From Gillisia sp. Hel1_33_143 (GTDB lineage: Bacteria > Bacteroidota > Bacteroidia > Flavobacteriales > Flavobacteriaceae): a stretch of 64,000 nt of DNA. Shown here one piece after another: positions 3,358 to 57,439 of this stretch. Each line of letters opens with the position of its first letter. The stretch's first letter is position 1. The notes under the pieces are model-generated. The model did no database searches and was not told where the DNA came from. It worked only from the letters and a program-made list of their open reading frames with translations. A program made the translations under genes and the position numbers. The DNA is taken from positions 1,116,001-1,180,000 of the forward strand of contig NZ_LT629737.1 of assembly GCF_900104765.1 (NCBI RefSeq), in the 5' to 3' direction.

Positions 3358-4650
3358 CTAAGAATTCATAATATCTTCTATCTCGTCTGCTTCAATAGGA
3401 ATATTGCGCATTAAGTTGAAAGGTTCTCCTTTTGGCTGAATTACCAAGTCGTCTTCCAATCTAATTCCAAATCCTTCTGCAGGAATATAAATTCCAGGCT
3501 CTACCGTAAAAACTTGATTCGCCTCCATAGGTTCTGTCAAAATTCCATAATCATGCGTGTCCAAACCAATATGGTGAGACGTACCGTGCATGAAATACTT
3601 TTTATAGGCTGGCCAATCTGGATCTTCATTTTTAACATCGGCTTTATCCAACAACCCTAAGCCAATAAGTTCAGAGGTCATTAATTTTCCCACTTCCACA
3701 TGGTATTCTGCCCACATAGTTCCAGGAACTAACATTTTTTGAGCTTCATTCTTTACTCTATTCACCGCGTTATAAACTTCTTTCTGTCTTTTAGAGAATT
3801 TCCCGGAAACAGGAATTGTTCTAGACATATCGCTAGCGTAATTTGCATATTCTGCTCCGGTATCTAAAAGTATAAGATCTCCCGCTTTACATTGCTGATT
3901 GTTCTCTATATAGTGAAGCACGTTCGCATTGTTTCCGCTTGCTATAATTGGAGTGTATGCAAATCCATTAGATCTATTATTTAAAAATTCGTGCATATAC
4001 TCCGCCTCGATCTGATATTCCCAAGTTCCGGGTTTCACAAAATTTAAAGTTCTCCGGAAAGCTTTTTCGGTTATATCACATGCCTTTTGCATAAGATCTA
4101 ATTCTATCTGATCTTTTACAGAACGCAATCTTTGTAATATTGGATTGCTCTTCGCAACCTGGTGTGCAGGATATTTCTTCTTGCACCATTCTACAAATCG
4201 AGCTTCTCGAGTTTCGGTTTCAACATTTGCACGATAATGTTCATTGGTATTGAAATATACGGTCTCACATTGCGTCATCACCTCAAAGAAAACTTTGTCA
4301 AAATCTTTAAGCCAGTATACAGTTTTTATCCCGCTAGTTTCCAACGCTTTTTCTTTGGTTAACTTTTCACCTTCCCAAACAGCAATATGATCATTGGTTT
4401 CTGTTAGGAATAAGATCTCTCTGTGTTTCTCCAAGAGAGCGTCTGGGAATAGCACTAAGATACTTTTATCTTGGTCTACACCGCTCAAATAAAATATATC
4501 TCGCGCTTGTTGAAATGGCATAGTGCTATCTGCACCAATTGGGTAAATATCATTAGAATTGAAGACCGCTAAACTATTAGGCTTCATTCTAGCCATAAAG
4601 TTCTTTCTGTTCTTAATAAAAAGTTTTCGATCTATTTGGTCGTATTTCAT
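3358..4650 (-). CDS. Aminopeptidase P family protein (Xaa-Pro aminopeptidase, M24B)
   Basis: A 430-residue peptidase that removes an N-terminal residue before proline. The N-terminal half is the AMP_N-type domain; the C-terminal half is the creatinase/pita-bread fold. All five metal ligands are present: Asp in LLDTGAEY, Asp in ASDMSRT, His in GTSHHIG, Glu in TVEPGIY and Glu in IRLEDDL, which predicts an active dinuclear manganese enzyme. No signal peptide is seen, so it should be cytoplasmic. It stands alone, converging on brnQ. ATG start chosen because the family N-terminus (about 430 residues) fits and the upstream 137 bp carry no coding signal. Confidence 0.93.
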   Translation of the reverse strand: MKYDQIDRKLFIKNRKNFMARMKPNSLAVFNSNDIYPIGADSTMPFQQARDIFYLSGVDQDKSILVLFPDALLEKHREILFLTETNDHIAVWEGEKLTKEKALETSGIKTVYWLKDFDKVFFEVMTQCETVYFNTNEHYRANVETETREARFVEWCKKKYPAHQVAKSNPILQRLRSVKDQIELDLMQKACDITEKAFRRTLNFVKPGTWEYQIEAEYMHEFLNNRSNGFAYTPIIASGNNANVLHYIENNQQCKAGDLILLDTGAEYANYASDMSRTIPVSGKFSKRQKEVYNAVNRVKNEAQKMLVPGTMWAEYHVEVGKLMTSELIGLGLLDKADVKNEDPDWPAYKKYFMHGTSHHIGLDTHDYGILTEPMEANQVFTVEPGIYIPAEGFGIRLEDDLVIQPKGEPFNLMRNIPIEADEIEDIMNS

Positions 4651-4787
4651 GAAATTGAATTTAATTTTTTTAATCTATTCTACCTCTGTCAGGACATAAT
4701 TCCCGTGAGATTTTCAAAATTAGGAAAGCTATTTTCAAAAGCTGTTAAACTAACTTTAAAAGATTTTAGATTTCTTTAACAAATGGC

Positions 4788-5078
4788 TTATTCATATAAA
4801 TTCAATCTATTTCTAAGCTGAAGATTAGATTTTTGAAGTTTTTTAACCTGATTAAGTAAGTTCTCTACAGCCTCCAAGCCTTCTATGTTTATATGAAGAT
4901 CATAATGCATTCTACGCAATTTTTCAAAATCGGAGATATTATCGCAATGCACATATTCTGTCTTTTCAACAGTTATAATTTCTAGCAATCCGCTATCATT
5001 CAAGCTCCTAATAAAAGTGCCTTCTACGCTGTATTTGGTGCATAAGTCTTCTGTGGCTACTAATTCTTCTAAATTCAT
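4788..5078 (-). CDS. cbpM: Chaperone modulator CbpM
   Basis: A 96-residue protein of the CbpM/MerR-like modulator family, which binds the J-domain of CbpA and restrains it. The N-terminus ([18 protein letters not shown]) resembles a degenerate MerR-type helix-turn-helix, followed by an [16 protein letters not shown] segment typical of CbpM and a coiled C-terminus rich in Leu, Lys and Gln. The ATG overlaps the cbpA stop by four bases, so translation is probably coupled and the two proteins made in fixed ratio. Small size and context make the call good; direct DNA binding is not implied. Confidence 0.85.
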
Positions 5079-5995
5079 GATCGTAATTTTTGAAGTTCTT
5101 GAAATAGTTCTTTTTCTTTAGCTGAAAGATCGGAAGGCATTTTAATTTGGTAGGTAATATACAAGTCTCCAAATTGTGCTTCTTTCTTGTATTTAGGAAA
5201 ACCTTTTCCTTTTAACTTAACCTTGGTGCCAGATTGGGTTTCAGGTTTTACTGTTAATTTTACTTTACCGGTAAATGTATCAACAGTAATTTCTCCTCCC
5301 AATAATGCTGTATAGAAATCTAGGTCTACCGTTGCGTATAAATTCTCTTTCTCTCTTTTAAAATTGGTGTTGTTTCGAATATTGAACGTTATTAAAAGAT
5401 CTCCTTTAGGTCCTCCCTGAACTCCTGGGCCTCCATGACCTTTAATTTTTATTGTTTGTCCATTTTCTACCCCGGCAGGGATAGTTAACCTAATATTTTT
5501 ACCATTAACAGTGATGGTTTGTTTTTGGCTGGTATAGATATCTTTTAAATTAAGCTGAAGTTCTGCGTTAAAATCCTGTCCTTTAAAATGAGTGGTTCTA
5601 CCTCTTCCTGTACCTCCTGCGCCAGCTCTTCCGCCGAACATTTCTTCAAAGAAATCTGAAAATCTATCATCATCAAAATTTCCGGAGTATTGTTGCTGGC
5701 CTCCGCCAAATCCACCAAAACCGCCTCCACCTTGAGAACGTTGCTGCTTAGCTTGTTCAAATTGGTCTGCATGTTTCCAGTCTTTCCCATATTCATCATA
5801 TTTCTTTCTGTTCTCCGGGTCGCTCAAAACTTCATTTGCTTCATTGATTTGCTGAAATTTTGCCTGAGCGGTCTTATCATTCGGATTCAGGTCTGGATGA
5901 AATTTGCGTGCTAATTTTCTATATGCTTTTTTGATGTCTGCTTGGGTGGCAGATTTATCAAGTTCGAGAATTTTGTAATAGTCTATAAAATCCAT
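5075..5995 (-). CDS. cbpA: DnaJ-class co-chaperone CbpA
   Basis: A J-domain co-chaperone that hands unfolded clients to DnaK. From the ATG at 5995 the protein is 306 residues and opens [16 protein letters not shown], the usual J-domain start; a longer frame from 6040 adds 15 residues unlike the family, so I reject it. The HPD tripeptide is in KFHPDLNP, then comes a Gly/Phe-rich linker ([14 protein letters not shown]), then the two C-terminal beta domains with no CxxCxGxG zinc finger, which marks CbpA rather than DnaJ. It is followed by cbpM with a four-base overlap, the usual operon order. Confidence 0.9.
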
Positions 5996-6219
5996 GGATG
6001 TTTTTTCTGCTCTTGAAATTACTAAAAATGACGCTGCCAATGGGTTAAGCTTTTCAAAAATGTTGATATTTTAATATTTGATCAATTTTGAATATCAATT
6101 TGGAGGTTGGATAGTGAAGGGAATTAAAGATTGTGTTGCCAACTTTTGATAATCAAACTTCAACAATTATTAAAGTACTTTGAATTAGTTCTAAATTGAG
6201 GGTAAAATAGTTGCTAAAG

Positions 6220-6251
6220 TTTGTGAGTAACTATTTTCAGATGTATTTTTG
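6220..6251 (+). promoter_or_regulatory. Bacteroidota-type promoter of sdhCAB
   Basis: TTTG at 6220-6223, a 20-base spacer and TAttTTTG at 6244-6251 match the Bacteroidota housekeeping promoter (TTTG, 17-23 bases, TAnnTTTG). The start of transcription would fall near 6256-6258, giving a leader of about 25 bases to the sdhC ATG at 6282. This also argues against the longer sdhC frame that begins with TTG at 6249, inside the -7 box. Confidence 0.75.
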
Positions 6252-6281
6252 CTGTTAAAATTTTATAAAATAATCAAACCA

Positions 6282-6944
6282 ATGGGTGGATTACTAAAAT
6301 CTTCAGTAGCGAAAAAGTTTGCTATGGCCTTATCGGGACTTTTTCTAGTTCTATTTTTAGCTCAGCATTTCACGATTAACTTAACTTCGGTGATAAGTCC
6401 GGATGTTTTTAATGAGCTTTCTCATTTTATGGGAACCAACTTTTTAGTACAGGCGCTATTGCAGCCGGTATTAATATTTGGAGTTTGTTTTCACTTTATA
6501 ATGGGATTTGTATTAGAGATCCAAAACAGAAAGGCGAGAAGTATAAACTACGTACGTTATAATGGAAGTGCTAACTCTAGCTGGATGTCTAGAAACATGA
6601 TCTGGTCTGGGGCGGTGGTATTAGCTTTCTTAGGACTTCACTTTTATGATTTTTGGGTACCAGAATTAGTTCACAAATATGTAGAATCTAATCCTGAAGA
6701 TGCAACAAGATATTATGGAGAATTGGTAGAAAAGTTTCATAGTCCGGTTAGAACAGGACTTTATGTGTTGTCATTCATCTTTTTAATGCTTCACTTATTA
6801 CACGGTTTCTCATCTTCTTTCCAATCTGTTGGTTTCAACAATAAATATTCTAAAGGATTAAGAGGCTTTACTGTAGCATACGCTATAGTTATTCCGTTAG
6901 GCTTTATTTTTATAGCACTTTTCCATCATTTTAATAACGTTTAA
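6282..6944 (+). CDS. sdhC: Succinate dehydrogenase cytochrome b558 subunit
   Basis: The membrane anchor of complex II in the single-subunit, di-haem (type B) form used by Bacteroidota; it passes electrons between the Fe-S subunit and menaquinone. From ATG at 6282 it has 220 residues (start MGGLLKSSVAKKF) with five hydrophobic helices; several His in or next to helices (AQHFTINL, VCFHFIMG, GLHFYDFW, HLLHGFSS) can serve as haem ligands. A longer frame from TTG 6249 overlaps the promoter and is rejected. sdhA follows after 12 bases. The protein keeps the cytochrome b558 family length and layout. Confidence 0.92.
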   Translation: MGGLLKSSVAKKFAMALSGLFLVLFLAQHFTINLTSVISPDVFNELSHFMGTNFLVQALLQPVLIFGVCFHFIMGFVLEIQNRKARSINYVRYNGSANSSWMSRNMIWSGAVVLAFLGLHFYDFWVPELVHKYVESNPEDATRYYGELVEKFHSPVRTGLYVLSFIFLMLHLLHGFSSSFQSVGFNNKYSKGLRGFTVAYAIVIPLGFIFIALFHHFNNV

Positions 6945-36823: not shown

Positions 36824-37348
36824 TTAAACGGTTAGATCGTTTTCTTCTTGAAGGGATTTAGCCTTTTTGAAAATATAGCTCAAGTATATCATAAACAGTC
36901 CAAAACAAACTGCCATAAAATTGGAATCAAATGAAAATATATGTATACCTATATCTCCACTTTTTCCACAAACTATATTTGAAAACATGGTATAGATAGA
37001 TTTTAAAATTACCAGAAGAATAATCAATTGTCCTAATAACTTTAGACTGGAAATTTGAAAACGATTAAATAATTCAGATTCGAAAAGGGAACTAACAATT
37101 TTTTTAAATACATATAGGCTAAAAATAAAACCTAGATTTAAAAGTATGGAGGTAATTATTAAAGCAATTACTGGAAATTCCCATCTAAAAAATGTTACAC
37201 CTAAAAAGTCTAAGAGAAATTTTGATTCAGGGAAAAATGGTATAAAAAAGATTCCAATAATATTTAATAAGACAGAGGCAATGACAACTATAAAGACAAA
37301 GTTCAGGAAAAATTTTAACGGTTTTAATGGTGTTGTAAATGGACTCAT
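36824..37348 (-). CDS. DUF2975 membrane protein, copy 2
   Basis: A 174-residue integral membrane protein with four helices (residues about 12-35, 50-80, 105-125 and 145-165) and a short charged tail SLQEENDLTV. The family is DUF2975 (YoaS-like), of unknown function, usually paired with an HTH regulator. It is a paralogue of the gene directly upstream; the last nine codons plus stop are identical at base level (31-base repeat at 36824-36854 and 37367-37397) while the rest has diverged widely. Confidence 0.85.
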   Translation of the reverse strand: MSPFTTPLKPLKFFLNFVFIVVIASVLLNIIGIFFIPFFPESKFLLDFLGVTFFRWEFPVIALIITSILLNLGFIFSLYVFKKIVSSLFESELFNRFQISSLKLLGQLIILLVILKSIYTMFSNIVCGKSGDIGIHIFSFDSNFMAVCFGLFMIYLSYIFKKAKSLQEENDLTV

Positions 37349-37366
37349 ATTGATGATTTATATAAA

Positions 37367-37885
37367 TTAAACGGTTAGATCGTTTTCTTCTTGAAGGCTT
37401 CTAGATTTTTTAAAGAGCTTACTCATATAAATAAAAAACAAACCTATTGATAGAATAAAAAGACTGCTATAATAACCAGAATCTACGGAAACGCCAATTT
37501 CCAATCTTTTTTCTAGTAGCATCGTGGAGAAAAAGTGAACTATAAACTGCAGTACTACAGATAGAACAATAAGCTGACCAATTAGTCTGAACAAAGCAAT
37601 CTGTAATTTTGTGAAAAATGAATTCTTAAAAAAACTTCTTATCAATTTTCTCAAGAGGTATATAGCATAAGTGCTTAATAGTGTAACAGCAAAATTGCTA
37701 ATTATTAACAAGCCTGACGAGAAGCTCAAATCCACAATTTCCTTTTGACTATCATTTATGGTAACCGTAAAAGGTTCTCCATAGAGTATAAGCATCAAAT
37801 AAGTAAAAAAAGAGAAAATAACGTCAATTATCAGTATGATAAAACAAATGTCAATGCTCAGTTTAAGAAGTTGTAAAGATTTCAT
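37367..37885 (-). CDS. DUF2975 membrane protein, copy 1
   Basis: A 172-residue, four-helix membrane protein of the same family as its neighbour, with the same tail SLQEENDLTV. It opens the three-gene operon DUF2975-DUF2975-HTH; 18 bases separate its stop from the next ATG. Two homologous membrane subunits suggest a heterodimer. The tail faces the cytoplasm if the N-terminus does, and could be the part the HTH protein reads; that is inference. Confidence 0.85.
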   Translation of the reverse strand: MKSLQLLKLSIDICFIILIIDVIFSFFTYLMLILYGEPFTVTINDSQKEIVDLSFSSGLLIISNFAVTLLSTYAIYLLRKLIRSFFKNSFFTKLQIALFRLIGQLIVLSVVLQFIVHFFSTMLLEKRLEIGVSVDSGYYSSLFILSIGLFFIYMSKLFKKSRSLQEENDLTV

Positions 37886-51437: not shown

Positions 51438-51920
51438 TTAGTTGATAAGGTTATTGCTTAATTCATAGACCAAATTAGATTCAAATCCTCTTTGCAAAAG
51501 GTAATCACTCAACTTTTTTTTCCGCTTGTATGGATCTGATTCTTTAATAAGATTAAGCTTTTTCTCTGCTACCTGTTCCAGAATATTTAAATATTCGTTT
51601 TCATCTATTTCGGTAAGCCCAAGTTTGATTATCGGCGCAGAGATCTCTTTCTTTTTAAGTTCCTGGGTGATCTTTATTTTACCCCATTTTTTAATTCTGA
51701 ACTTACCCCGAACAAAACTTCTGGCAAAGCGCTCTTCATTTAAGAAATCCTCGCTCATCAGTTCAATTATAATCTGTTCACAAGCTTGAGGGATCATTCG
51801 CATTTCCCTTAATTTATCTTCCACTTCTTTTTGGGATCTATCTCTATAGGCACAAAATTGCGCTAATTTGAGCGTCGCCTCTTTAACGGTATAAGATTTT
51901 TGTGATAGATTATCCTTCAT
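51438..51920 (-). CDS. recX: RecX regulatory protein
   Basis: A 160-residue helical protein that modulates RecA filaments. The repeats of the RecX fold are visible: CAYRDRSQKEVEDKLREM near residue 28, DFLNEERFARSFVRGKFRIKKWGKIKI near residue 57 and KLSDYLLQRGFESNLVYELS near the end. recA is not adjacent. The stop lies one base from the stop of the convergent cupin gene. Confidence 0.9.
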   Translation of the reverse strand: MKDNLSQKSYTVKEATLKLAQFCAYRDRSQKEVEDKLREMRMIPQACEQIIIELMSEDFLNEERFARSFVRGKFRIKKWGKIKITQELKKKEISAPIIKLGLTEIDENEYLNILEQVAEKKLNLIKESDPYKRKKKLSDYLLQRGFESNLVYELSNNLIN

Positions 51921-52047: not shown

Positions 52048-52055
52048 TATATTTG
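52048..52055 (+). promoter_or_regulatory. -7 element directly before a T9SS cargo gene
   Basis: TAtaTTTG, a perfect TAnnTTTG, ends three bases before the ATG at 52059. As at glyS, transcription would start at or next to the start codon. This also decides against the TTG start at 52053, which lies inside the box. Confidence 0.6.
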
Positions 52056-52058
52056 AGG

Positions 52059-53936
52059 ATGATTCGGTTTTTATTGTTGTTAGCATTAGTGCTTAGTTTT
52101 AATAATTCTTATGGGCAGTTAGGCTTTTGTAATGGAAGTAAAGGTGATCCTATATTTCAAGAAGACTTTGGTACAGGTTCTGGATATGGCCCTAGGTTGG
52201 CTGCAGGAATTACTAATTATAGTTATGTAACTCAAGATCCTCAAGATGGGGAATATACCATATCTAGCATTATTGGGCGTGAAATCCCATCCTGGCATTC
52301 TTATTCTCCAAATTTAACTCCTTCTGGAGGAAAAGCGCTAATTATAAATGCCGGCTTCACTGCAGGACAGTTCTATAGAACAGATATTTCCGGACTTTGT
52401 GAAAATACTACCTATGAGTTTTCGGCTTATCTGATGAATATTTATAATTCTGCAAGTGGTGCTTGTGCTGATGGTGATATTCCTGTAAATGTAAAATTTC
52501 AAATCTGGGATGAAACCAATACTCAGCTTTTGAAAGAAGGCAGTACAGGTGCTATAAATTCTACCGCTTTTCCTTTAGCTGAAGAATACGCTCTAACTTT
52601 TAAAAGCGCACCAGGACAGAATAATGTGATTCTAAAAATGTTTAATAATGGAGAAGGTGGTTGCGGAAATGACCTTGCAATAGATGATATAATTTTTAGA
52701 TCATGTGGAGATCTCACCAGTATAGATGCTGGAAATTCATCAAACATGAATTTGAGAGTTTGCGAGGAAGATACTCCGTACAATGTAGATCTTAAAGCAA
52801 CACCAGATAACACAGTGTATCAAACACATGCTTACCAATGGCAACGAAGTTTAGACGCAGTTAACTGGACAGATATTAGCGGAGCAAATCAGAGTAATTA
52901 TACGGTTGTGAATTTAGTGCAATCCACATATTATCGCGTAAAGGTGGCAGAGGATAGTATAAATCTTACTAATAATTTGTGTAGTTCTTTTTCTGAAGCT
53001 TTTTTTGTACAGATGGTTTCAGTACCAACCGCGCCAGTTAGTAACGGAGATGTGGTGGTTTGCGGTAATTCTGAAATACCTCAAATTTCTGTAAAAGCGG
53101 GGGTAGATGAAATGGTGAATTGGTATGATGCTCCATCTGGCGGAAACTTACTTCAAGCCAAATCTTTTAATTATCAACCAGATGTTGCTGGTATATTTTA
53201 TGCGGAAGCAAAAAGCACCTTAATAGAATGTAAACCAAGTTCCAGAACTGCAGTTAAAATTACTCTAGATAATATCCCAGATGTGGAAGATGAAACAATT
53301 CAGATATGTCCAAACTCAAATATATCTTTAGATGCAGGCGTAAGTGGTTTTAATTATATGTGGTCTACTGGTGAAAATTCCAAGACTATTCAAGTAACGC
53401 AACAAGGCAATTATACCGTGGAAATAGCTACAAATTTAGGATGTGCCGTAACAAGAGAATTTACTGTTAACGATATAGATGATGCGCAAATAAGTGATGT
53501 TAGAACGGATGAGAATTCTATCGAGATCATTCCTGTAAATACCGGAGTTTTTGAATATTCTCTAGATGGAGTCAATTTTCAGGATTCAAATGTATTTTTA
53601 GGAAAGCCCGGCGGAGTTTATACTGCTTATATGAGAGATAAGAGTGGTTGTAATACCGTTAGCTTGCAATTTCCATACATTTCCCCTCTAAAATTTATAA
53701 CGCCCAATGGAGACGGTTACAACGATAATTTTATTTTAAGAGGAGTAGAAACTTTTCCTTCTTCTCAAATTATGATCTATGACAGGTATGGGAAATTATT
53801 GAAAGCTAGCAATGGAAGTAATTTTTCTTGGAATGGGACTTTAGAAGGTAAAGATCTTCCTGCAGCAGATTATTGGTATCATATAAAAATTGAAGGCTTT
53901 GGTGAGCTTAAAGGCCATTTTTCTTTAATTAGATAG
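52059..53936 (+). CDS. Secreted T9SS type B (gliding-associated C-terminal domain) protein
   Basis: A 625-residue surface protein. Signal peptide MIRFLLLLALVLSFNNSYGQ; a jelly-roll-like domain (residues about 25-215, with CGNDLAIDDIIFRSC at its end, as in carbohydrate-binding modules); Ig/PKD-like repeats with paired Cys (VCEEDTPYNVDL, VCGNSEIPQIS, ICPNSNISLDAG); and the type B sorting domain FITPNGDGYNDNFILRG ... MIYDRYGKLL ... YWYHIKIEGFGELKGHFSLIR. Type B cargo is secreted by the T9SS and displayed on the cell surface. Binding target unknown. Confidence 0.87.
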   Translation: MIRFLLLLALVLSFNNSYGQLGFCNGSKGDPIFQEDFGTGSGYGPRLAAGITNYSYVTQDPQDGEYTISSIIGREIPSWHSYSPNLTPSGGKALIINAGFTAGQFYRTDISGLCENTTYEFSAYLMNIYNSASGACADGDIPVNVKFQIWDETNTQLLKEGSTGAINSTAFPLAEEYALTFKSAPGQNNVILKMFNNGEGGCGNDLAIDDIIFRSCGDLTSIDAGNSSNMNLRVCEEDTPYNVDLKATPDNTVYQTHAYQWQRSLDAVNWTDISGANQSNYTVVNLVQSTYYRVKVAEDSINLTNNLCSSFSEAFFVQMVSVPTAPVSNGDVVVCGNSEIPQISVKAGVDEMVNWYDAPSGGNLLQAKSFNYQPDVAGIFYAEAKSTLIECKPSSRTAVKITLDNIPDVEDETIQICPNSNISLDAGVSGFNYMWSTGENSKTIQVTQQGNYTVEIATNLGCAVTREFTVNDIDDAQISDVRTDENSIEIIPVNTGVFEYSLDGVNFQDSNVFLGKPGGVYTAYMRDKSGCNTVSLQFPYISPLKFITPNGDGYNDNFILRGVETFPSSQIMIYDRYGKLLKASNGSNFSWNGTLEGKDLPAADYWYHIKIEGFGELKGHFSLIR

Positions 53937-53950
53937 AGAATTTCTTCTAA

Positions 53951-53982
53951 CAAAAAAACGCCTCTCAAATTAATGAAAGGCG
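53951..53982 (-). terminator. Copy A of the rng-type terminator
   Basis: A7 followed by CGCCT (959-963 of this kilobase) pairing with AGGCG (978-982). On the minus strand the A-run is a U-run after the hairpin, so it ends the 54084 gene. It matches copy C behind rng (55712-55740) over about 31 bases apart from one extra A, but carries no rng coding sequence. Confidence 0.8.
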
Positions 53983-54083
53983 GTAATATGTAAAAAATTA
54001 TAAGAGTATAATTTCAATAAATAAAAATAGATATATACAATAAATCAAAAATCTAATTTCATTCACCACTAATCAATCTTTTT

Positions 54084-54509
54084 TTAATCAAAATCAAAAT
54101 TATCCTCACTTAGTAGAAACGATTGTCCTACTTCAATAATCTTCACTTCATTATTTAAAGAATCTTTTTCAACAATAAATAACTTAGGTAAACCTTTTTC
54201 TTTTTCTATACGCAGATTATCAATGGTGATTTTAGAAAGTTTTTTAATTGCAGTATCTATAGGAGTAATTGTTATTTTCTCTAAATAATCCAATTTTCTG
54301 ACTTTTATCTCTGTTTCCATTCTACTCAGATAGATTGTATCTTTTTCATTGTGAATCATAAAAGATTGATCTTCATTTTTTATATCGAATTGGATATTGG
54401 AATGAAGCACAATCTCATCATAATCCAAGTATATTTTTTCATTATGATCACATCCATATAATAGGACTCCAATAATTAAAACAAAATATTTAAATATTTT
54501 ATTAGACAT
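54084..54509 (-). CDS. Orphan small lipoprotein in the rng-tail island
   Basis: From ATG 54509 (MSNKIFKYFV) a 141-residue lipoprotein with lipobox LLYGC and a beta-rich, charged remainder (DYDEIVLHSNIQFDIK; acidic end SEDNFDFD). An ATG at 54527 would add six residues. I recognise no family. It is more AT-rich than the genes around it and sits between two copies of the rng terminator, which suggests that it arrived by insertion. No catalytic motif is seen. Confidence 0.6.
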   Translation of the reverse strand: MSNKIFKYFVLIIGVLLYGCDHNEKIYLDYDEIVLHSNIQFDIKNEDQSFMIHNEKDTIYLSRMETEIKVRKLDYLEKITITPIDTAIKKLSKITIDNLRIEKEKGLPKLFIVEKDSLNNEVKIIEVGQSFLLSEDNFDFD

Positions 54510-54567
54510 TTTGATGTTTTTAATCATTCCAAATTCATTAGAAAGTTGAGGTAATAAAAATAAGATT

Positions 54568-54738
54568 TCTCAAATTAATGAAAGGCGTTAGTTTTAAGAA
54601 TAATGAGTTTATTCTAATACTTCCCCGTTTTTATCGTGAAAGTGATATTCCATGTACGTGTAAGCGTCTCTTGGTAAAATTTTTACCCAGCGCTTATGGT
54701 CAAAAAACCATTGGGAGCGGGGCGATGGAAAGCCTCTT
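54568..54738 (-). pseudogene. Duplicated 3' fragment of rng with part of its terminator (copy B)
   Basis: These 171 bases match 55723-55893, the last 43 codons and 3' flank of rng. From about 54608 on, the coding part looks identical base for base; differences are confined to the noncoding end next to the terminator. The fragment has no start and ends abruptly at 54738, where similarity to rng stops. The left arm of the terminator (A-run and CGCC) is missing, so this copy cannot form the hairpin. Such identity means recent duplication or gene conversion. With the 54740-54843 stretch, in which I see nothing, it fills the 316 bases between two orphan genes. Confidence 0.92.
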
Positions 54739-54843
54739 TAATTTTCTTTATTTATCGGATTTTTGACAAAAAAACACAATATAATATAGTTGAAATTTAG
54801 TAATACACCCTAATTCAATTATAATCCCTTAGTTACACTTTTA

Positions 54844-55332
54844 TTAATATGCAACGATAGTTACTTCTACTTTATATAAGATATAAGTGTTTTTATTACT
54901 TTTTTTTAGAAAATAAATATCTTTAAATTCAACCGGCTGTTTGGCTACTTTTTTCCAACTTGTAGTTTGAATCCAGTTATAATCTACTAAATTTAATTTT
55001 TTAATTTCATCTTCTTTGATTTTGATTTCTTCTTTTGATATTATTTCAAAAGTTAATTTTGAAACTTTTATTTTAAGATTATCTCTACCACTTTCTGGGT
55101 CAAAATAATAAGTACCATTTTTTTTTGCTTCTTTTATTTTCTTTTGATGGTATTCATACTCTTTTTTGTTCAATAAATTTATGAACCGAATTTTTTCGCA
55201 AAGCATAATATTATTAATGGTATATTCAGAACTACCATTCTCTAACACAAAATACACATCTTCTTTTTTTTGTGAAAAAGATACGAAGGAGTATAAAATA
55301 AAAATTAGTGATACATATTTATTTGCATTCAT
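54844..55332 (-). CDS. Orphan small secreted protein in the rng-tail island
   Basis: A 162-residue protein from ATG 55332 (MNANKYVSLIFILY); an ATG at 55350 would add six residues before the signal peptide. The signal peptide likely ends at SFVSFSQ. The mature part is Lys/Glu/Ile-rich, with many YYFDPESGRD-like polar turns, and no family is recognised. It is strongly AT-rich. The ATG overlaps by 14 bases the 3' end of a headless frame (55319-55522), as if the two were once coupled. It lies between the rng fragment and the true rng gene. Confidence 0.6.
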   Translation of the reverse strand: MNANKYVSLIFILYSFVSFSQKKEDVYFVLENGSSEYTINNIMLCEKIRFINLLNKKEYEYHQKKIKEAKKNGTYYFDPESGRDNLKIKVSKLTFEIISKEEIKIKEDEIKKLNLVDYNWIQTTSWKKVAKQPVEFKDIYFLKKSNKNTYILYKVEVTIVAY

Positions 55333-55522
55333 TGACTTTCGAATTTTCATAATTTATAATTACTTTTCTAATTCTTTTTTTCTCATTCTTTGCATATTCT
55401 GGGTCTACATGTAAAGTAGCGAGTAAATGTGTAGATGACAATCTAGCAAATTTTCTATTAATGATGTTGTTATAAAGCAATACTCTACTTAAGGTTTTAC
55501 CATGTTTAACAGTTTTTCTACA
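55319..55522 (-). pseudogene. Headless open frame, possible gene remnant
   Basis: On the minus strand 67 codons are open between TGA at 55523-55525 and TAA at 55319-55321, with no ATG. The composition looks protein-like: KHGKTLSRVLLYNNIINRKF near the front, then THLLATLHVDPEYAKNEKKR and a basic end. It overlaps the next gene by 14 bases. It may be the C-terminal end of a gene whose 5' part was lost when the island formed; chance is not excluded. No family was recognised. Confidence 0.35.
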
Positions 55523-55710
55523 TCAATCTGCGAAATTCTCTACAGATTTTAAGACGTCTTTTTTGTTATATTTTTATGGGAAGAAGGTGTGATGTGATGC
55601 TGTGATGTAGTGACGCTGTACTCCAATCTCTTTTTTAGAGCGTTTCTCTTTCATTTCTTCGCTTTTTTCCTCCCTTACTTCGCCACTTTGTCATTATTTA
55701 AAAAATAGCA
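55523..55710. other. Noncoding stretch with GTGATG-type low-complexity repeats
   Basis: Between the headless frame and the rng terminator I see no gene. It includes a GTGATG/GTGACG-type repeat (55587-55620) and a CTTCGCTTTT/CTTCGCCAC pair (55655-55690) of the kind often seen in flavobacterial intergenic DNA. Its origin is unknown; together with the headless frame it explains the 413 bases without a complete gene. Confidence 0.4.
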
Positions 55711-55711
55711 A

Positions 55712-55745
55712 AAAAAAACGCCTCTCAAATTAATGAAGGCGTTAC
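55712..55745 (-). terminator. Copy C, terminator of rng
   Basis: A run of A, then AACGCC at 55718-55723 pairing with GGCGTT at 55738-55743. On the minus strand the A-run becomes the U-tract, 19 bases after the rng stop at 55764. Copies A (53951-53982) and B (54568-54590, broken) are related. Confidence 0.85.
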
Positions 55746-55763
55746 TTTTTAAGAATAATAAGT

Positions 55764-57302
55764 TTATTCTAATACTTCCCCGTTTTTATCGTGAAAGTGA
55801 TATTCCATGTACGTGTAAGCGTCTCTTGGTAAAATTTTTACCCAGCGCTTATGGTCAAAAAACCATTGGGAGCGGGGCGATGGAAAGCCTCTTGTTAAAA
55901 AGGCTGCAATAAATGGGTGCGTACTCAAAGTGATCTTTTTATGATTCTTCTTGATCAATCTTTCTAGGTCGGTCTTAATTTTATCAATTACGATAATAGG
56001 TGCCTCAATCTCACCTGCTCCGTTGGGATTTTCTTCCCTGGTTTTGATATTAGTTTCCGGCCTTACGCGTTGTCTTGTTATTTGAATCAATCCGAATTTA
56101 CTAGGAGGAAGTATTTTATGTTTAGCGCGATCATCGCTCATTTCTTCCCTTAAATGATCATAAAGGGCCTTCCTGTTTTCGGGTTTGTTCATGTCTATAA
56201 AGTCTACTACAATAATCCCACCCATATCGCGTAAACGAAGTTGGCGAGCTATTTCTGTAGCGCTTATTAGATTTACTTCTAAGGCTGTATCTTCTTGATT
56301 CTTAGCTTTATTAGACCTGTTGCCAGAGTTCACGTCTATAACGTGCATGGCTTCGGTATGCTCAATAATCAAGTAAGCACCTTTACTCATAGAGACGGTG
56401 CGTCCAAATGAAGTTTTTATCTGTCTTTCGACTCCAAATTTTTCAAAAATGGGAACATTGGTTTGATGCAATTTTACTATAGATTCTTTATTAGGGGCAA
56501 TTTCTGCCAAATAATCTTTAATTTGTACATATAGCGTTTCATCATCTACGCAAATAGAAGTGAAAGTATCATTAAACACATCTCTTAAGATGGATGATGC
56601 TCTATTTAACTCTCCTAATACCTTGGAAGGATGAGGTGCTTTGTATAATTTTTTACACATGACTTTCCAACGATCCATCAAATTTTGAAGATCTTTGTCC
56701 AGCTCTGCTACTTTTTTGCCTTCTGCTACGGTACGTACAATAACACCAAACCCTTTAGGTTTAATACTTTTTACTAATCTTTTAAGTCTATCTTTTTCTT
56801 CTTTGCTCTCAATTTTTTGAGAAACCGAAACCCGGTTAGAAAAAGGAACTAAAACTATATACCTACCCGGAAGAGAAAGCTCGGAGCTAATTCTCGGACC
56901 CTTAGTAGATATAGGTTCTTTCATGACCTGTACCAATAGCGACTGATTTGATTTTAAGACTTCAGCAATGCTGCCGTCTTTATCAATGTCTTTTTCAAAA
57001 GTAAAATTCTGTAAAGAATAGTCTTTTAATTTACCTGTGCTTACACGTTTTACGAATTTCAACAATGAAGAGACTTGAGGTCCCAGATCATGATAGTGTA
57101 AAAAACCATCTTTTGTGTAGCCTACATTTACAAATGCGGCATTTAATCCGGGAACAGCTTTTCTTATCTTGGCAATAAAGATATCGCCAACAGCAAAATT
57201 ACTGTCGTCTTCTTCCTTGTGTAATTCAACTAGTTTTCCATCTTTTATTAAGGCAAAATCTACAGCAGAAGAACTGGTTCTAATAATCAATTCTTTATCC
57301 AC
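55764..57302 (-). CDS. rng: Ribonuclease E/G family endoribonuclease
   Basis: An S1-domain endonuclease for rRNA maturation and mRNA decay. I choose GTG at 57302, giving 512 residues beginning (M)DKELIIRTSSSAVDFALIKDG, because this is the family N-terminus; an upstream ATG at 57359 adds 19 Asn/Arg-rich residues of doubtful reality. S1 domain near residues 20-110 (VGDIFIAKIRKAVPGLNAAFVNVG), the catalytic Asp pair in MHVIDVNSGNRS near residue 318 and IIVVDFIDM near residue 362, and an RNase G-size C-terminus without the RNase E scaffold tail. Its last 43 codons are duplicated at 54609-54738. Confidence 0.92.
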   Translation of the reverse strand: MDKELIIRTSSSAVDFALIKDGKLVELHKEEDDSNFAVGDIFIAKIRKAVPGLNAAFVNVGYTKDGFLHYHDLGPQVSSLLKFVKRVSTGKLKDYSLQNFTFEKDIDKDGSIAEVLKSNQSLLVQVMKEPISTKGPRISSELSLPGRYIVLVPFSNRVSVSQKIESKEEKDRLKRLVKSIKPKGFGVIVRTVAEGKKVAELDKDLQNLMDRWKVMCKKLYKAPHPSKVLGELNRASSILRDVFNDTFTSICVDDETLYVQIKDYLAEIAPNKESIVKLHQTNVPIFEKFGVERQIKTSFGRTVSMSKGAYLIIEHTEAMHVIDVNSGNRSNKAKNQEDTALEVNLISATEIARQLRLRDMGGIIVVDFIDMNKPENRKALYDHLREEMSDDRAKHKILPPSKFGLIQITRQRVRPETNIKTREENPNGAGEIEAPIIVIDKIKTDLERLIKKNHKKITLSTHPFIAAFLTRGFPSPRSQWFFDHKRWVKILPRDAYTYMEYHFHDKNGEVLE

Positions 57303-57439
57303 TTTAATTAGATTTTTGTCCCGATTGTGTCGGGATGGATTAAACATTAAATTTTTCACAGGGTTTTTAAATCCTGAAGAAACACTTAATTACTTTATAA
57401 ATAATAAAGGTTTCATTTTCAAAGAACGTCTTTTACTAA

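Follow-up and report, generated by a model that had tools for sequence, protein, structure and literature searches.

rng ends are duplicated around two AT-rich genes

The window analysed here is a stretch of 64,000 nucleotides from Gillisia sp. Hel1_33_143 (contig NZ_LT629737.1, positions 1,116,001 to 1,180,000), and our subject is the 3' end of its rng gene, which encodes a ribonuclease of the G/E family, together with two small genes behind it that we call orphan 1 and orphan 2. In window coordinates and in the sense of transcription, the locus holds the following features.

55764–57359, minus strand: rng, ribonuclease G/E family, with a rebuilt 3' end (longest frame, start codon not settled; the name is that of the original prediction, backed by conservation in 14 of 16 genus genomes)
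55764–55893, minus strand: copy of the coding tail that forms the end of rng itself, 130 nt including the stop codon (repeat search and alignment)
55719–55741, minus strand: terminator copy C, changed, with one T lost (sequence comparison)
55319–55480, minus strand: frame with the 3' remnant of a gene for a putative HExxH lipoprotein toxin (last 43 codons at 55322–55450, plus stop; 49% identity over 43 amino acids (aa))
54844–55350, minus strand: orphan 1, 168 aa, putative orphan immunity gene (56–65% identity to four proteins in three loci)
54609–54738, minus strand: displaced rng tail, coding part of copy B (repeat search and alignment)
54568–54587, minus strand: truncated terminator B, 20 nt in common with copy A (sequence comparison)
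54084–54527, minus strand: orphan 2, 147 aa, lipoprotein-like, possibly, on a weak similarity, a second orphan immunity gene
53959–53982, minus strand: terminator copy A, the sole complete hairpin in the genome by pattern (pattern search and consensus scan)

The order in the sense of rng, namely rng, copy C, orphan 1, the tail with copy B, orphan 2 and copy A, is that described in the original prediction. As also noticed there, the coding tail of rng recurs without change: the copies at 55764–55893 and 54609–54738 agree at 130 of 130 positions including the stop codon, with 0 differences, and what differences there are between the two tails are confined to the 3' flank. Comparison of the window with itself aligned 54568–54738 with 55723–55893 at 97.7% identity over 172 columns (E 2.8e-77), a value that excludes a chance origin, and the repeat search stretched the pair to 183 nt at 93% (54556–54738 and 55711–55893). 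The coding tail and most of the terminator are therefore present twice at a spacing of 1155 bp, and the terminator recurs alone a third time as copy A. Copy B ends after CGCCTTTCATTAATTTGAGA. On the rng strand, the consensus scan passed copy A and neither of the others as terminator-like, so that copy C may terminate less strongly. It seems that foreign genes have been captured behind rng at least twice in the window.

The search for further copies of the 171-base tail that had been proposed was run over the whole genome (one contig, 3,475,961 bp) and returned only the two known places, both at the rng locus; the complete hairpin pattern, with up to three mismatches allowed, was found once, at copy A. 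A repeat spread through the genome, or an uptake sequence, was therefore rejected. Control DNA of 340 kb from the same genome held no repeat of 50–400 bp at ≥90% identity. Repeats of other kinds were seen: a 1.2-kb repeat at 98.9% identity, perhaps an insertion sequence, that reaches the end of the fetched piece (L124, 5002–6234 and 18768–20000), and repeats of 53–282 bp at 75–85% identity, partly tandem (L131, 3875–4239 and 12361–12639). At 36824–37440, a repeat of 74 nt (78%; 36824/37367) makes the ends of two neighbouring membrane-protein genes near-identical; these genes are a pair of tandem paralogues.

The interval behind rng varies among relatives

A match to rng was found in 14 of 16 genomes of the genus, our own included. 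On its 5' side, the distance between HU and rng is 276–302 bp in 14 of 14 genomes. On the other side, the distance from rng to recX is 3843 bp in the window and runs from 543 to 6194 bp in 12 of the 13 relatives, the fetched piece of the thirteenth (G015; G and L numbers are our handles for genomes and fetched pieces) stopping before recX. Two genes close the variable interval in the window:

52053–53936, plus strand: CHU_C type IX secretion protein gene, the ancestral neighbour on the far side
51438–51920, minus strand: conserved far border of the variable interval, a gene that we take to be recX-like

The locus is flanked by rng, HU and mutY on one side and by the CHU_C gene and recX on the other, with no secretion-system cluster.

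Comparison of the rng 3' flank among these relatives, suggested earlier as a check, revealed an empty site as well as different cargo in other genomes. In G005, a single complete terminator separates rng from the CHU_C gene; copy B of the window corresponds to the left part of this flank (one mismatch) and copy A to its right part, B and A overlapping by 20 nt. The CHU_C gene is the only cargo in G005 and G008, and it adjoins rng in G015. One short secreted-type gene lies there in G006 and G007 and an 817-aa protein in G002; by our own naming, G003, G004, G010 and G013 presumably hold an S41-peptidase-like gene, G010 and G012 toxin-antitoxin-like genes, and G001, G011 and G013 lipoprotein-like genes. 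A terminator pattern drawn up at the level of the genus occurred in nine of the 16 genomes at ten places, each of them next to rng or where its cargo ends on the far side, and seven genomes had no match. Behind recX, G013 has a repeat of ∼430 bp at 90% identity (L028, 6598–7271).

Neither orphan 1 nor orphan 2 had a match in the fetched stretch of any of the 13 relatives with rng (0 of 13 carry the two genes), and the coding tail repeat is absent from them as well, so that the claim of a hotspot, which had been staked on this comparison, survives. The same result bears on an old fixed arrangement or a plain local duplication without transfer: a recent event of that sort would give identical coding tails, as observed, but it leaves the 13 relatives without genes and repeat, and the unrelated cargo between the copies, to be explained, and we consider it very improbable.

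Two relatives carry replaced gene ends

The rng gene of G010 is like those of G003, G006, G007, G008 and G015 over most of its length, and its last bases and flank are of the window type. Counting sites at which the window differs from all five group members, window-type and group-type sites in G010 stood at 9:121 before alignment column 1400 and at 6:3 after it (p 3.9e-5). Taking G005 as the other parent gave 5:120 before and 6:7 after (p 7e-5); coding sites alone after the boundary gave 3:0 (p 6e-4) and the flank without gaps 3:3. A native-type rng end, GTTTTAGACTAA plus the terminator seen on the rng of G003, is found beyond the cargo of G010. G003 itself, run as a control, turned out to be a second case (1:133 before and 4:11 after, p 3e-4), with an end and terminator like those of G006 at the far side of its cargo. 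The other four group members, which have no such remnant, showed 0:11 after the boundary. In G010 and G003, the gene end was supplied by the insert and the native end was displaced.

Tail copies recur in other genera

A search with the C-terminal 59 aa encoded by rng found a match in 386 of 397 genomes of the family Flavobacteriaceae, and two matches in ten of these. Tail copies beside cargo were present in five of the 386, from four genera (our own genome, G028, G258, G059 and G155); G028 and G258 belong to the same genus and may share one event. The second match of the other five genomes was set aside as chance (E 0.002–0.01, elsewhere in the genome). The tail pairs are 95–98% identical with the terminator included, and G155 has a further copy at 85% identity, which makes three stacked copies. 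When 56 loci were scanned by local alignment (the window and 55 fetched pieces, of which four had been picked for their tail), tails or terminator copies came up in nine, namely these five together with G010, G003, G013 and G011; weak repeat matches in L083 and L145 were discarded as AT-rich or generic terminator matches. With the empty site, the varied cargo and the displaced ends of G010 and G003, this recurrence supports the original idea that DNA inserts again and again at the 3' end of rng, restoring the gene end each time and making it a spot for accessory cargo.

The cargo behind rng elsewhere includes domains of the AHH nuclease (G258, E 9.7e-8), astacin (G059, E 2.3e-39) and DUF6973 (G410, E 2.1e-13) families. 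Behind the cargo of G410 lies an internal piece of rng (165 bp, 95.8%). This fragment (L139, 4052–4216), which follows the DUF6973 lipoprotein-like gene, adjoins two genes (4298–6615) that presumably form an IS21-type transposase pair. Open reading frames for lipoproteins made up 26 of 139 within 3 kb behind rng and 18 of 238 beyond 4.5 kb (p 0.0015); nine of the 26 are one conserved OmpA-like neighbour, and as p is 0.096 without them, we do not claim an enrichment.

Orphan 1 resembles putative immunity genes that follow HExxH toxin-like genes

The two genes had been described as AT-rich, secreted and of no recognisable family. They are indeed AT-rich (23.1 and 24.3% GC for the genes, 25.8 and 23.0% for cargo 1 and cargo 2, 34.9% for the window), and neither has a family above the cut-off in Pfam, NCBIfam or PADLOC. 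Their signal sequences were judged by eye, and orphan 2 has LLYGC, which our lipobox pattern does not accept. What that description missed is that orphan 1 has relatives. Against the 397 family genomes, its certain match was itself only, with three marginal ones (E 2.5e-4 to 9.5e-4). A scan of a genome collection placed its relatives, among the matches listed, in three loci, of Gelidibacter japonicus (G412), G. pelagius (G415; both Flavobacteriaceae) and Polaribacter marinus. Both Gelidibacter relatives lie behind rng; the Polaribacter contig has only 3259 bp, and the position of its genes relative to rng is not visible.

In all three loci, the relative of orphan 1 stands next to a toxin-like gene. 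The Polaribacter contig encodes a 472-aa lipoprotein-like protein with an HEAIH motif, and the orphan 1 relative comes next, its gene overlapping the preceding one by 32 bp; in Gelidibacter, the two genes overlap by 41 bp, counted from the first start codon. The partner proteins show HEAIH and a lipobox by eye. A SprT-like domain was above the Pfam cut-off in a 195-aa Gelidibacter protein (E 5.1e-6) and below it in the Polaribacter protein (E 0.0064) and a 284-aa Gelidibacter protein (E 4.6e-4). In the window, orphan 1 is preceded by a remnant of such a gene that was overlooked in the original prediction: the match over its last 43 codons has E 3e-9 for the 983-base target, and 8e-9 with the Gelidibacter protein, and the remnant overlaps orphan 1 by 32 bp, the same overlap as in Polaribacter. 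No intact cognate toxin gene stands beside orphan 1, only these last 43 codons, and a search of the own genome at E 1e-5 turned up nothing that matched the HExxH toxin domain. Because its relatives adjoin HExxH lipoprotein-like toxins, and because a toxin end with the 32-bp overlap precedes it, orphan 1 is probably an orphan immunity gene. Judged from these sequence relationships, it looks like a leftover antidote to another bacterium's toxin.

Orphan 2, the second of the two co-directed cargo genes, matched only itself among the 397 genomes. Its possible role as a second orphan immunity gene, a weak assignment, derives from 24 residues that resemble part of a lipoprotein-like protein encoded behind the rng gene of G412 (E 4e-5 in a comparison of just these two). 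As to a phage or plasmid source, orphan 1 had no match among phages and none as an alignment among viral contigs, and orphan 2 had none among plasmids, other combinations not having been run; solved structures yielded nothing useful. The loci of the relatives have further features of their own. On the Polaribacter contig (L161, 1–3259), genes are bounded by complementary repeats (70–88/494–512, 1066–1081/3050–3065 and 626–640/930–944); it also has a 35-nt repeat in three copies, resembles a gene-cassette array and has a coverage of 409. In G. japonicus (L141, 7212–12227), rng is followed by a series of three HExxH toxin-like genes with putative immunity genes, and an assembly gap falls within a repeated stretch of this series.

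The two genes might instead be ordinary accessory envelope proteins, so that the insertion history alone would be of interest. Other relatives hold presumed S41-peptidase-like or toxin-antitoxin-like genes at this site, the orphans lack a family in the three collections named above, lipoprotein enrichment behind rng is not established and orphan 2 has its 24-residue similarity only. What speaks for an immunity gene, in the case of orphan 1, is that its relatives directly follow and overlap HExxH lipoprotein-like genes in Polaribacter and Gelidibacter, and that the end of such a gene has been kept in the window; we think the envelope-protein explanation unlikely, though it has some weight. Our preferred reading, held at about even odds, is that foreign genes, including toxin-immunity modules, have landed repeatedly at the 3' end of rng.

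Junctions are compatible with one-sided capture anchored in rng

Each repeat has one side that stops where homology with the old flank stops, and another that is a non-homologous border inside rng. These left borders of the tails lie 36, 86, 87, 104, 130, 131 and 471 nt before the stop codon, and by eye at ∼12 nt in G003 and G010; no shared motif was seen at them. A crude motif scan, reaching up to 9.5 kb past rng in the 56 loci, some of which were cut short, found no tyrosine recombinase; serine recombinases were not sought. The own genome has 11 integrase-family matches, the nearest of which is 64 kb from the locus, in keeping with the earlier remark that no integrase is seen at the site. 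Together, one homologous side, one variable non-homologous border and no recombinase in view fit homology-facilitated illegitimate recombination.

We therefore propose, at roughly balanced odds, repeated one-sided homologous capture anchored in rng. Incoming DNA, which we infer to come from a related strain, would pair by homology with the rng end as its anchor and thereby bring a new gene end and terminator; its far end would be attached, without homology, within the resident rng end or directly after it, leaving the old end behind as a truncated tail, and repeats of the capture would stack such tails. In the window, orphan 2 would have entered first and split the old terminator into B and A; a piece with the toxin remnant and orphan 1 would then have brought the new end with copy C, the old end remaining as B. 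The surviving tails may be mostly short because long ones can be lost by looping out.

Several observations weigh against this proposal. No donor sequence is at hand, and the joint itself was not seen. The left borders coincide twice (130/131 and 87/86), which is unexpected under random joining, and only one of them is farther than ∼130 nt from the stop codon, so that the looping-out argument is needed. The mosaic of G010 comprises few sites of a conserved tail, in which the group differs from the window at 3–5 of 130 positions and G010 at 1, and the boundary at column 1400 was picked after the data had been seen. The toxin family also occurs away from rng: 42 of the 397 genomes have one, for example 60 kb from rng in G059, and on this count and example we rejected a tie between this family and rng.

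Two other routes could lead to such a locus. An element of the integrase type that used the rng 3' end as its attachment site, with present copies decayed or satellites that have lost the integrase, would explain a rebuilt gene end with the native one pushed aside, as well as repeated use of the site in several genera. Varying left borders leave no constant crossover core for it, and the recombinase scan and the 64-kb distance given above also count against it; we regard it as improbable. Between the two options offered at the outset, recombination and an unknown element, the variable junctions lean towards recombination, which we would place as anchored in rng.

Close behind one-sided capture comes a Campbell-type route, in which a circle or tandem piece with an rng tail and cargo recombines homologously with rng, tails later swap cargo and gene conversion keeps them alike. 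It yields the same final structure. The tail pair of G028, nearly identical over its last 140 bases and diverged further upstream, is what gene conversion would give, as are the terminator features common to tails and rng in G028 and G258. The route needs a circle closed in the middle of rng every time, and no circular form was found, terminal overlap having been checked for the Polaribacter contig only, which has none. Taken by itself, we deem this route rather unlikely.

Beyond one-sided capture in the window, we suggest tentatively, and with less confidence, that across Flavobacteriaceae the 3' end of rng serves for capture without a recombinase, the end of a housekeeping gene acting as the recombination anchor and being renewed every time, with one tail left over. 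A stack of tails would then be a record of conflict in which the weapon was lost and the antidote kept.

Relation to known systems

In the icd gene of E. coli, prophage e14 supplies a new gene end and the native end stays as a remnant, by means of an integrase and a fixed core. The rng site shares the new end brought by the insert and the native remnant; unlike icd, its borders are variable and no integrase is seen. In the limited collection of literature searched, there was no report of the rng 3' end as an integration site or genomic island, and nothing on flavobacterial orphan immunity genes with a toxin.

For the orphan immunity arrays of the type VI secretion system in Vibrio cholerae, homology-facilitated illegitimate recombination has been proposed (PMC5361080). 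In the window, as in those arrays, a putative immunity gene stays together with the 3' part of an effector gene that was displaced, additions appear to accumulate and no integrase is seen. The Vibrio anchor lies upstream of the effector-immunity module, within the secretion cluster, whereas here it is the end of a housekeeping gene, itself duplicated, and no secretion gene adjoins the site. The rAID systems of the same phylum have short, co-oriented, low-GC orphan immunity genes in a row (PMC12247911), to which the two candidate genes of the window are similar; they come with a predicted tyrosine recombinase and conserved intergenic motifs, whereas the window has no linked recombinase and its repeats are rng ends. 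The copies of rng tail and terminator that separate the genes of the window are probably not the published rAID motifs. Integrase-free integration hotspots (PMC5635113) share a variable interval between core genes, the lack of mobile-element genes and recombination in a flanking core gene; the model given there, double recombination at both flanks, leaves no copies of a gene end, unlike the rng site. HExxH (zincin) domains are described in polymorphic toxins as predicted metallopeptidase domains at the C terminus (PMC3482391). The present proteins may be alike in a predicted C-terminal metallopeptidase, and their lipoprotein-type N terminus was matched to no class of that paper.

How bacteria gain single antidote genes without a linked recombinase is an open question, and for the rAID systems gene gain is called not yet clear (PMC12247911). 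Captures at rng that each leave a recognisable gene tail would allow the order in which they happened, the type of donor and the junction to be tested by comparison of strains, and duplicated ends of housekeeping genes may serve as a search rule that flags orphan immunity genes of unknown families. Overall, the repeats are real and the hotspot idea has support; we would extend it to an array of immunity type, a known kind of system in which the new element is the end of a housekeeping gene as the anchor.

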